Shown here: positions 156 to 62,374 of the stretch, in pieces
Numbering within the stretch: position 1 is the first letter of the stretch
Layout of the letters: each line of letters opens with the position of its first letter
NCBI GenBank assembly: GCA_002726245.1
Contig: PBSM01000191.1
Location: 1 to 64,000 of the forward strand
Reading direction: 5' to 3'
DNA: 64,000 nt
Source of the DNA: Planctomycetaceae bacterium
GTDB taxonomy: Bacteria; Planctomycetota; Planctomycetia; Pirellulales; Pirellulaceae
Notes under the pieces: model-generated
What the model was told of the DNA's origin: nothing
Database searches by the model: none
Seen by the model: the letters and a program-made list of their open reading frames with translations, nothing else
Program-made: the position numbers and the translations under genes

Positions 156-1323
156 ATGTCAACAGATGTAAACACAAGCCACGTTCACACGGTCGTCGAA
201 GCGACGGTTGCGCCGCCGGGGACCACTGATGTCTCGGTCGTCGTGCCAACGTATTGCGAGGCTACGAACCTACCAGAGCTTGTTTCCACTGGTCGCGAAG
301 GCACTTGACGAAGCCAATCTGAGTGCCGAGATCATCATTGTTGACGACAACAGTCCCGATGAGACGCCCGACGTGTGTGAGCGGTTGGCGCAGGACTACC
401 CTCTGCGGCTAATCGTTCGTCGCAGTGAGCGAGGCTTGTCGAGCGCGGTGATTCACGGGATGAAGCAGGCGCGAGGCGAAGTGCTCGTTGTCTTGGATGC
501 GGATCTGTCGCATCCGCCCGAGAAGGTTCCTGAGCTGGCCGCAGCGATCGCGGGGGATTCAGCCGACTTTGTCATCGGCAGCCGCTACGTTCCCGGTGGT
601 AAGACCGATGGGGACTGGGGGCTCTTTCGTTGGCTCAATTCGAAGGTTGCGACGCTGCTCGCTTTGCCATTGACGTCCGCCCGAGACCCGATGGCTGGCT
701 TTTTCGCACTGCGCCGCAGCACTTTCGAGGGCGCTCAATCGTTAGACCCGATCGGTTACAAGATAGGTCTTGAACTGATCGTCAAGACGGGCTGTCGGCG
801 AATCGCCGAAATCCCGATTCGCTTTCGAGATCGCCTGTACGGCGAGAGCAAGTTGTCACTCAAAGAGCAGATCAACTACCTGCGACATCTTCGTCGTCTG
901 TACGTGTTCAAACTCGGTTGGCTTGCCAAGCCGCTGCAGTTCGTTCTGATCGGCTCGACTGGAATGGTGGTGGATCTGGCCTCTTACGCCTTGCTACTGT
1001 CCATCGCGTCGGTATCCGTGGCGCGAGCGGTTGCAATCGGCGTGGCGATGACGTGGAACTTTCTGCTGAATCGCCGTTTGACTTTCAGCGAGTCGCGTGG
1101 CAATTTGCTAATCAAGCAGTATGTTCTGTTCTGTGCGGCCTGCTCGGTGGGTGCAGGCGTGAACTGGGCGCTTTCGGTCGGCTTGTGTGAATGGTTTGAA
1201 TTCTTCACCAACGCGAAACTATTTGCCGCCTTCTTAGGAGTGATTGCTGGAACGGGCTTCAACTATGTTCTTAGCAGTCGCGTTGTGTTCCGGACCCACA
1301 AGGCTAGCGCGGGAACTGATTGA
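156..1323 (+). CDS. dolichol-phosphate mannosyltransferase-like GT2 with GtrA domain (frameshifted)
   Basis: A GT2 family glycosyltransferase transfers a sugar to a polyprenyl-phosphate carrier at the membrane; the C-terminal GtrA domain is a four-helix module found in such fusions. The frame opens at ATG 156 with the GT-A start (VSVVVPTYCEATNLPEL), then the conserved continuation FPLVAKALDEAN followed by IIIVDDNSPDET appears one frame over. The shift lies near base 281 and equals one extra base. Further motifs are LDADLSHPPE and GSRYVPGG, then a positively charged stretch and a GtrA region with about four hydrophobic helices after GWLAKPLQFVLIGSTG. Without repair only 208-1323 is open, lacking the first beta strand. 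The length after repair, about 389 residues, matches DPM1-GtrA fusions. Confidence 0.8.
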
Positions 1324-1401
1324 CGAGGCCGCCTGGAAAGCCCGGTGCAGTTCCGCCGTTTGGGGGTGCGCCAGACGGCAGCACACCAGTCGTGAGAGTG
1401 T

Positions 1402-1428
1402 TAGCCGGATAAGTTTGTGAACCGGCTA
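1402..1428. repeat. short hairpin downstream of GT2 gene
   Basis: TAGCCGG at 1402-1408 pairs with CCGGCTA at 1422-1428, with a 13-base loop. It lies between two convergent genes (one ends at 1323, the other at 1477) and could help end transcription, but it lacks a T-tract. Confidence 0.3.
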
Positions 1429-1476
1429 CGCCGCGCTACGTCTCAAAGGTTGACAAAGCACTAGCTTGATTTTCCG

Positions 1477-3842
1477 CTACTGGTCTACCGTGGATTTCGG
1501 AATTCGCCAGCTCAGATGTTCGTGCAGGAAATCGAAAGTTTCGCGATCGGTGTATGGTGTGTTGTTCGGGTACGAACCGTAGTAAGTCATGGCAGTCCTG
1601 CGCCCGACGTCCAGATTCTCGTACAACAAACGGACCTTCGCGAACTCGGCACAGGTCTTGTCGGCAAATAGACCGTCATGATGAAAACGCTCAACCATGA
1701 ACGGTCGCGGGCAAATCAAAGCTGCCATTTCCGCGTAGTTGAATTTGCTACCCAGATCAAACTCGAATATCTCGTATTCGCTGTGTGCGAGGTAGCCGTT
1801 CGGATAGCGATTGGTCGCGGTTCTCCAGATCCAATCGCTGAAGTCCGAGGAACAGATCGAGAGGCAATAGCCGTCTAGTAGCGCAGGTATCCGCATGGCG
1901 GATTTCCCACCGTACGAGATGCCGTAGAATCCGATCCGGTTGCGGTCCACAAAGTCCAGTCCACCGAGCCAGCTCAATAACTGCCGGTGCTGAGCGACCA
2001 TGATTGAAAACAACGATTGCTTGAGCGGGTTCGCCTTGCGCTGGAGTGTGCGGAAACCGTCGCCGCCCCGATACAAATGCTGCGGTGCAAAAACGATGAA
2101 GCCGCGTTTCGCCAATCGCGAAGCAAAGTCGCGATAGGAGGTGTGATCGCCAGTTACCGTGAATTGCGTGCGCCCTTCAAGCCCATGCTGACAGACGACC
2201 ACGGGCCGTTTCTCGTCTTTGGCGATCTCTTTCGGGAGCAGCAAGATCCCGTAGAGCCTCAGCTCCGGAAACACATCAAGAGCGACCATATAGCCGCGAT
2301 ACTCAGGCTCGTCGTAGATCATCTGCGTGCGAGCATTCGCTGGCAGCAAGTCTCGATCGAAAGATCCAATGATCTGGTCGCGGAAGTGTTCGCGATATGA
2401 CACTGTGCTCTTCTCGAATGCCTGCACACCAGAGTCGCGTTCGATCTTCGCAATGAATTGGGCACGGACCTGATCGCTCTGGTCCACAAGCCGCTGCGAG
2501 AAGGCCGCGAGTTGTTTGAACTGTCGCGCAAGTCGAAGATCGGAGTTGAAGTCCTGACGTAGATGAATCGGGGCAGCACGGGACGTGGCCAAACGAGCTC
2601 CGGACACGTGCTTCACGACTGTTTCGAGAAAGGGTGCACTGCCGAAGTGTCCGGCGCCATCGCCGCTGACGACCAACTCCATCACAGGCTTTGGCTTTAG
2701 ACCGGCGATCAGCTCGCGTGCTCGTTGCAGCTCGTTTCGTACCGATTCGACCGGCGGTGTGATCAGCCGCGCAGGCGCACTCTGCGTGCCAGGCGGGATG
2801 TTAACCGTGGCAATCTGGCAGGACTCGACGATCAGTACTCGCGGCGCAATCAGCGACGCTATCTCGGCGTCGCCGAATTCTCGCAACAGACCGAACACGT
2901 TCCGGTCGATCGGCTCCTGCCAGATCTCTTGTCTCGAATTAAAGTAGCCGCTCACCCCGACAACATCGACCCGCTGATCGAGCGCGCCAGCGTACAAAGC
3001 TACGAGCCACCTTCGCCAAAACCAACAACCGCAATGCGCGGATCATCGTTGTCGGCCTCGCTGTCAAACCAATCGACTGCGGCGAGGACCTTCTGCACTT
3101 CGTAGCCGATCAGGTGCCGTCCCATCTGGTAGGCCGCTCGGTATAGCAGCTCGCGGTGCGTGACATTCGAAACCCGCTTGCCATCGGCAATCACGGAAAG
3201 ATGATTGCCGCGATTGATCAGCATTGGAACGAGGACGCGACATCCACTCTCTGCGAGTCGCCTCGCAAACTGGGATTCGATCGGTACGCCGGCTACGAGC
3301 CCGGCAAGCACCTCGGGCGTCTGCTCGCAATCGGGAATCGCCACAACCTGAGCGATCGACGACTTGCGGGTCGGCTCCAGCAACAGGCCCTCACCATAAA
3401 CTCCGTCGAGCGCCGGCCAACGAACGGCGTAAATGTTGTATCTATCTCCGTGGCCAACGAGTGCCGGTTGAACGCGGGTCGCAACGAACTCCAGCGTAGC
3501 AATCTCTGGACGAGGATCGCGGACTCCGATCATGGCCGCAAAACGGCGCCGATTCGGATCAATCGACTTGCTGTAGGCAGCCGCGGATGACGTGTCGCGA
3601 TTCCATAGTTTCGTGCGGCGTTCGACGGATGCTTCAATCTCGCGCAGCAAGAATCGATCGTTGCCCTCAATCGTATCGACGGCGATATCGCCCTCTAACG
3701 TGAGCGGTCGTGTTCCGGCGAGAGGCTCGCCTGACACCTCGGTATCCTCATCAGCGTCAGCGACATTGGAAACTGCGATCAGCAGAACGGAAAACAGCAC
3801 GATGTAGAGCCGATGCTCTAGAGAAGCCAGCCGCGCAAACAT
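1477..3842 (-). CDS. secreted double-domain alpha/beta hydrolase (AXE1/Abhydrolase-like), frameshifted
   Basis: A predicted exported esterase/peptidase-like hydrolase. It starts at ATG 3842, preceded by GGGAG about 7 bases upstream; the alternative ATG at 3863 overlaps the stop of the upstream gene as ATGA. A signal peptide follows (hydrophobic YIVLFSVLLIAV, ending near NVADA). The N-terminal half ends in VVGFGEGGS, a nucleophile-elbow-like turn with Glu where Ser would be. At about base 3001 the frame breaks: inserting one base restores GGSLALYAGALDQ. The second half has an oxyanion-type HGLEG, a proper elbow GISYGG and a late FHHDG with a candidate catalytic His. Two tandem hydrolase folds, about 790 residues, are therefore likely, with only the second catalytically complete. 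It is the last gene of a minus-strand cluster with DUF1501 and a PVC dehydrogenase. Confidence 0.75.
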
Positions 3843-8449: not shown

Positions 8450-8589
8450 CATCCGGTTCGCCGTTTGAAATCTTGTTGTTTTGCGGAGCTTTCAAATGTT
8501 CATAGCATAACATGACTTCGATGCAGGGTTGTGCTATTAACGTTGAGAACCATCGCCCGCGAACAAGATTTCAAACGGCGAACCGGATG
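8450..8589. repeat. perfect 28-bp inverted repeat, 84-bp spacer
   Basis: Bases 8450-8477 and 8562-8589 are exact reverse complements over 28 bp (outer end CATCCGGTTCGCC, inner end ATCTTGTT); the match stops cleanly on both sides. The intergenic stretch 8345-8747 holds little else that can be recognised. A perfect arm of this length is far beyond chance and would fold into a long stem on either strand. Confidence 0.85.
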
Positions 8590-19691: not shown

Positions 19692-19970
19692 TCAGTCCGG
19701 TTGCTTGACATCGATCATGCGGTGGCACAGGCTTCGCGATGTTTCCAGCCGACCATCGTGGCCTGTGATCACGACACAGTTGCTGGTGTTGACCGCGTCG
19801 TCTCTCGCGAGTCAACCAACCAACGAAAAACGCCAGCACCTCCGTCGCCGGGTGATCGATGACCCGCCACGTAAACTGTGTCGGCCGACTCCGGCATCAC
19901 GTCGGCAAGTTCAGCAAAGTCATCAACGGCGAGCAAGTGTTCCATGAGTGCTTCGTTTCTTTCAGTGTCG
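19692..19970 (-). pseudogene. fragment of a beta-helix/pectate-lyase-like protein N-terminus
   Basis: Minus-strand frame reads LLAVDDFAELADVMPESADT then VYVAGHRSPGDGGAGVFRW, a pattern typical of the segment that opens parallel beta-helix (pectate-lyase-3-like) proteins. After one missing base near 19785 the frame continues DDAVNTSNCVVITGHDG and ends at 19692. The upstream side is cut exactly by the 240-bp inverted-repeat element at 19971. The rest of the beta-helix is absent. Confidence 0.35.
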
Positions 19971-20210
19971 CTCAAACTGAAAACGCGAGCGAGAAAGGGG
20001 ACTGGCTCCATGCCCGCCAAGGCCCGAAATGCTGGTCAACGGTACTGGCACGGTGCCTGTCCCCTTTCCTCGCGGGCCACGTCGAACGGCGCTGGTCCGT
20101 CGTGAAAGTGGGACAGGCACCAAAGCAGCGAACCACATGTTTTCTAGTGGTAAGTCGATCTCGCTGCTTTGGAGCTAGTCCCATTTTCACGACTCCCTTT
20201 TCAGTTTGAG
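19971..20210. mobile_element. 240-bp MITE-like element with 13-bp terminal inverted repeats
   Basis: CTCAAACTGAAAA at 19971-19983 is exactly inverted at 20198-20210. Inside are two further stem-loops: GAAAGGGGAC (19993-20002) against GTCCCCTTTC (20059-20068), and a 31-base arm at about 20101-20131 against 20161-20191 with only four mismatches, containing GTGGGACAGGCACC. Motifs of the GGGACAGGCACC type resemble REP units spread by REP-associated tyrosine transposases; no transposase is present here. The element carries no gene and truncates the beta-helix fragment next to it. Confidence 0.65.
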
Positions 20211-20298
20211 TAAGTAAAGGTCGATGCGAGATCTCTACATCAGTTGTCGCTCAGTTCGTTGTTGTCTTGCGCGAATCATAGATTTGGGGAATCATTGT

Positions 20299-42961: not shown

Positions 42962-43028
42962 GTTTAGCCGCAAGCCGGAGGCGTGCGCTTCCTCGCGTCC
43001 AACGCACGCCTCCGGCTTGCGGTTAAAC
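42962..43028. repeat. dispersed palindromic repeat, copy 1
   Basis: Arms 42962-42987 and 43003-43028 are reverse complements over 26 bases with one mismatch, core CCGCAAGCCGGAGGCGTGCG, loop 15 bases. The same core occurs at 62291-62374. It sits between two genes of one operon, where a stable RNA stem could set differential mRNA stability. Confidence 0.8.
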
Positions 43029-62290: not shown

Positions 62291-62374
62291 CTCGTTTAAC
62301 TTAACCGCAAGCCGGAGGCGTGCGTTTCTGCGGATTGTGAGGAAACGCACGCCTCCGGCTTGCGGTTAAACGAG
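62291..62374. repeat. dispersed palindromic repeat, copy 2
   Basis: Arms 62291-62328 and 62342-62374 pair over 33 bases; the left arm has five extra bases (a second TTAAC). The core CCGCAAGCCGGAGGCGTGCG is identical to copy 1 at 42962-43028. It lies between the GntR stop and the ATPase start, inside the presumed operon. Confidence 0.8.

Follow-up and report, generated by a model that had tools for sequence, protein, structure and literature searches.

Bacterial MITEs such as RUP, NEMIS/Correia, Nezha and MITEAba12 are short, gene-less elements with inverted ends and a target-site duplication, are found between genes in many copies, and mostly originate by internal deletion of an autonomous insertion sequence. 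REP doublets (BIMEs/REPINs) are also dispersed between genes in many copies and consist of two inverted imperfect hairpins. In the case of the TIRYT class, some of the flanking repeats share the sequence GGGGWSAS, whilst the GTAG-15 dimers of Anabaena variabilis lie inside long palindromes (Di Nocera 2013, PMC3733652). The 240-bp element analysed here resembles the MITEs in its small size, lack of genes, inverted ends, target-site duplication and many intergenic copies, but unlike them its interior appears to be a pair of Y1-type hairpin repeats, its ends are common to elements with unrelated interiors in other planctomycetes, and its parent was not found. The GGGGACWG tag in its inverted hairpin arms recalls the TIRYT-associated repeats, and in the host genome a similar, not identical, hairpin lies upstream of a related Y1 gene; here, however, the hairpins are enclosed in a unit that has ends and duplications of its own. 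With the REP doublets it shares the two inverted imperfect hairpins and the many dispersed intergenic copies, but its target-site duplications and fixed outer ends set it apart from them, and inspection of its hairpins by eye revealed no 5' GTAG/CGTC tag. As with GTAG-15, REP-type dimers are regularly found within a longer inverted repeat, although in the present case duplications show the enclosing unit to be mobile, whereas PMC3733652 discusses no target-site duplication. In our assessment the element is very probably a composite MITE, in which the outer unit would be a non-autonomous DNA transposon of the DDE type and the inner Y1-type hairpin pair its passengers.

Within the window (the whole stretch of 64,000 nucleotides that was analysed), perfect 13-bp termini enclose two imperfect hairpins (Table 1), as an earlier note made from the sequence had described. 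The arms of hairpin 1 comprise 22 nt (19993–20014/20047–20068; 86%) and those of hairpin 2 33 nt (20099–20131/20161–20193; 88%), the latter with the long arms and four mismatches reported in that note; the GGGACAGGCACC motif is located at 20110–20121 and, reversed, at 20052–20063. Folded as single-stranded DNA, the element reaches -76.1 kcal/mol (z = -10.6), with no shuffle equally good, and perfect 13-bp inverted pairs at most 400 bp apart occur five times in the real window (the element included) against none in 10 shuffled windows. The ORFs that overlap the element all enter from its flanks, and the 240 bp contain no gene-like ORF and no transposase gene, in agreement with the view that the element lacks a gene of its own; a Pfam search with one overlapping ORF (19769–20020) and an Rfam search with the element returned no match. 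The window also contains another foldback at 8450–8589 (140 bp, 62-nt arms that are 77% complementary with the outer 28 nt perfect), which is without CTCAAACTGAAAA ends, and a different dispersed palindrome family, the hairpins of which at 42968–43022 and 62301–62369 have the arm CCGCAAGCCGGAGGCGTGCG in common.

Table 1. Coordinates of the element, its neighbours and related features; positions refer to the window unless a contig is named.
Feature	Position	Strand	Remarks
240-bp element, very probably a composite MITE	19971..20210		about 36 genomic places, common ends, target-site duplications at other copies
Left terminal inverted repeat, CTCAAACTGAAAA	19971..19983	+	35 exact genomic sites of the 13-mer, none for the reversed control
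Right terminal inverted repeat, TTTTCAGTTTGAG on the + strand	20198..20210	-	13 bp, perfect
Hairpin 1, GGGGACTGGCTCC ... GGTGCCTGTCCCC, GGGGACWG-tagged repeat	19993..20068
Hairpin 2, GGGACAGGCACC ... GGAGCTAGTCCC, polarity opposite to hairpin 1	20099..20193
TAAGTAA, target-like 7-mer in the right flank	20211..20217		no matching copy at the left, 19964-19970
58-aa ORF fragment beside the left edge (beta-helix fragment of the earlier note)	19772..19945	-	no Pfam match
PSCyt1-domain ORF beside the right edge, 219 aa	20299..20958	-	short
Genes ending in Tyr-Ser-Asn-stop	C311/L064, gene end near 2926 (host); L194, gene end 613 (another planctomycete)
Minimal elements, 36-40 bp, little beyond two ends	L207:1312-1347, L212:232-271, L213:197-236, L306:3011-3050
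G244 contigs with identical ends	L121, L237, L244, L249, L254, L259, L261-L270

In the genome that contains the window (7.6 Mb in 356 contigs, 89% complete), the element is present at about 36 places, mostly at 82–96% identity, a manual count from which hairpins without ends were left out; because some of these places are halves of one insertion split across contigs, the number of insertions can fairly be put at more than 30. The ends are identical in every copy in which they are complete, full-length copies diverge from their consensus by 1.3–7.5%, and shorter forms of 121, 129 and 170–172 bp retain both ends. Further copies with identical ends, as anticipated in the earlier note, are also evident from the 35 exact sites of the 13-mer (none for the reversed pattern); 240 other genomes of the family contain at most four sites each, and a search of the genus returned only the host genome. 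End-like sites outside the copies (C9:5354, C196, C68, C145 and C179) look like chance occurrences, the reversed control giving five, whilst the one at C311 represents what is left of a right end.

A perfect 7-bp direct repeat borders nine of the 17 copies that have both flanks (TTAAGTT, GACATTA, TTACTTA twice, TCATTTA, ATGGTTA, TACGTTA, TAACGTT and TTAGGAA), compared to a chance expectation of approximately 0.001. Three further copies display a 6-bp duplication, four copies (that in the window among them) show none and a fifth only a doubtful one of 5 bp; in addition, the two halves of a split-contig pair share GAGTATA. The target is mostly AT-rich, and many sites fit TNANTTA (TAANTNA on the other strand). 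The target-site duplications that had been proposed as a check are thus present and, together with the copies and conserved ends, bear out the reading as a non-autonomous mobile element; the absence of other copies and of shared ends, which that note had named as refuting, is not what the genome shows. The Y1 (REP-associated) enzyme suggested for it is in turn a misfit for the movement of the 240-bp unit, since Y1 enzymes are not known to create target-site duplications: ends, duplications and copies instead favour a transposase of the DDE type that works in trans, and Y1-type repeats could account for no more than the interior hairpins.

The same ends are found in other planctomycetes. Scanning the GTDB species genomes with ANTTACTCAAACTGAAAA gave at least 111 matches, and among the matches listed 16 are titled as planctomycetes (counted manually from the titles). 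Most of the searched genomes of these planctomycetes are rich in CTCAAA[C/G]TGAAAA (86 sites in G241, 130 in G242, 24 in G246, 18 in G244 and 6–7 in two others; 0–1 in controls). The elements bounded by these ends measure 36–40 bp, approximately 160–175 bp or in some cases more, and many exhibit AT-rich duplications of 6–7 bp. In G241, G242 and G246 the interiors vary by genome, yet the sizes cluster at about 160–165 and 173–175 bp, and many of the elements combine one C-type with one G-type end, which would place a mismatch in the folded stem. The interiors are unrelated to that of the window element and differ from one another, although many are, as read by eye, again foldbacks (ACCACGGAG..., AACCACGAAT..., AACCGCCAAG..., GGGCTTTTCCGGCC...). 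Because the same ends bound different foldbacks, many passengers appear to depend on a single transposase specificity. The minimal elements have 6-bp duplications at L207 and L306 and one of 7 bp with a single mismatch at L212. In G244, 15 contig ends carry an identical sequence of 122–124 bp that terminates in CTCAAACTGAAAA, with the interior missing from the assembly: this is a collapsed element with long identical ends, and the identity of these 15 contig ends suggests that it has perhaps been active recently. Amongst the ANTTACTCAAACTGAAAA matches outside the planctomycetes no convincing paired elements were found, and on viral contigs with the end sequence paired ends do not exceed chance; plasmids yielded no similar DNA. 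In the literature searched, the end sequences were encountered only in two unrelated papers and GGGGACAGGCACC in one, likewise unrelated, and we found no description of this widespread planctomycete end group.

An autonomous partner with the same ends was not found in the host or in other genomes; draft assemblies lose such elements. The DDE_Tnp_1 loci of the host genome, checked for the ends, yielded none that was convincing; two intervals between ends (2.6 kb in G241:C1 and 2.3 kb at L194) contain other genes, with no transposase recognised, and the gene that follows an end at L250 is by our own reading prepilin-like rather than a transposase. Whilst the element is mobile and gene-less, as the earlier note had it, the search for the enzyme elsewhere in the genome on which it was said to depend did not find one. 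An ordinary MITE, in which a single autonomous insertion sequence has lost most of its interior and the hairpins are the remnant, would have the usual origin of bacterial MITEs, and with no partner found there is no parental interior with which to compare the hairpins. We nevertheless consider such an origin unlikely, given that hairpins of the same kind are encountered without the ends: single ones at C178, C267 and C289, a pair at C116 that is some 30% diverged with its ends lacking or decayed, and, in a different genus (G067), relatives at 71–81% that include a pair at L085 without these ends. The interior hairpin repeat is hence independent of the MITE ends, and the unrelated foldbacks that other planctomycetes carry inside the same ends also argue against derivation from one parent.

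As regards the nature of these hairpins, GGGACAGGCACC has 35 sites in the genome, almost only inside copies of the element, and the wider motif GGGACWGGCWCC has 94 (control 3), a few of them outside copies. GGGGWSAS is fitted by GGGGACAG in hairpin 1; the other arms show GGGGACTG, TGGGACAG or a variant. On contig C2 (L060, G000:C2) the host genome contains a Y1 transposase gene (1201–1935, minus strand) for a TIRYT-like protein of 244 aa with a PF01797 domain, which scores 66 bits against NCBIfam REP_Tyr_transpos, under the cut-off of 80. Directly upstream of this gene, on one side, lies a GGGGACAG-type hairpin (AGTACAGGCACC...GGAGCCTGTCCCC) that is similar, not identical, to those of the element; of the seven Y1_Tnp loci of the genome examined for the hairpin core, C2 alone carries it. 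Among six homologous Y1 genes of plasmids that were inspected, three are flanked on both sides by inverted GGGG[A/T]CAG repeats and two more by GGGGTCAG on one side. Since these plasmid repeats agree with the TIRYT class, paired TIRYT-type repeats offer the best reading of the interior, an assignment drawn from motif and neighbourhood. It is a different and very improbable proposition that a Y1 enzyme of the RAYT/TIRYT kind moves the 240-bp unit in its entirety, as a REP doublet (BIME/REPIN) and via single-stranded DNA, with the 13-bp ends no more than the foot of an outer stem: the two inverted hairpins with their GGGGACWG tag and the TIRYT-like C2 gene with its similar upstream hairpin would agree with this, but not the perfect 7-bp duplications at nine copies, the same ends around unrelated interiors elsewhere, the solitary hairpins without ends or the 36–40-bp elements that have target-site duplications but no hairpins (L207 and L306; near-perfect at L212).

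None of 15 tested copies is situated within a called gene, whilst 84% of random points are, using a simple gene caller based on codon usage and trained on the same genome. A stop codon lies within 10 bp of nine of these 15 copies compared to 57 of 389 random intergenic points (binomial P = 7e-5); in three other sampled genomes, none of 25 elements is in a gene and five of the 25 are within 10 bp of a stop codon, a weaker effect than in the host. The AT-rich target in a genome of 57% GC and the purging of insertions from genes may together explain this location. Two genes end in Tyr-Ser-Asn-stop encoded by the element end TACTCAAACTGA. That the element is instead an immobile host regulatory repeat selected at gene ends (such as an mRNA stabiliser or a terminator at the 3' end) would suit its strong folding and position, but is very improbable in view of the target-site duplications and fixed ends, a search of the element that found no terminator-like site, and aligned copies with little covariation beyond shared descent; the element may still affect 3' ends in a secondary way.

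The window copy is without a target-site duplication, so that the junction on its left is no clean insertion junction and has probably changed after the element inserted, be it through a deletion, through recombination with another copy or otherwise. The PSCyt1 ORF at the right edge may be truncated, and this would accord with a change of that kind without proving it. We could not support the earlier view that the element cuts a beta-helix gene: the 58-aa fragment gave no Pfam match up to E = 1, its PDB matches (titin) are taken as spurious with none credible, the window contains no intact gene related to it, and its ATG lies approximately 25 bp outside the element.

Dispersed copies, fixed ends, duplications of fixed length and the separability of ends and interior thus characterise the element, which is a MITE with what is probably a Y1-type hairpin pair as its body and, by its ends, a member of a widespread planctomycete group. 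This class is assigned because every MITE property that we tested apart from an identified partner is present, namely multiple dispersed copies, conserved terminal inverted repeats, a fixed-length target-site duplication (7 bp here, 6–7 bp in relatives) and the absence of an internal transposase gene, whilst REPIN/RAYT elements, with which it shares the two inverted hairpins, are expected to lack the duplication that is seen here. A DDE-type transposase supplied in trans would bind the 13-bp ends and join the unit into a 7-nt staggered break, the repair of which would create the duplication. The opposed GGGGAC[A/T]G hairpins were probably once an independent repeat that either joined the element or gave rise to it, and would now be passengers. 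Copies occupy intergenic positions, in many cases at a stop codon, and cause little damage there; the AT-rich target may contribute to this placement. More tentatively, a specificity that is planctomycete-wide and needs almost nothing but the ends (CTCAAA[C/G]TGAAAA, with an AT-rich target of 6–7 bp) might repeatedly turn resident hairpins, those of Y1 type included, into new MITE families species by species. That end-only elements of 36–40 bp have duplications suggests that the transposable unit can be very small, which would help to delimit the minimal recognition sequence when the enzyme has been found. If our reading is true, DDE-type MITEs and Y1-associated hairpin repeats, which are usually treated apart, would become linked, and there would be an end sequence by which a large group of mobile elements in planctomycetes can be searched for.
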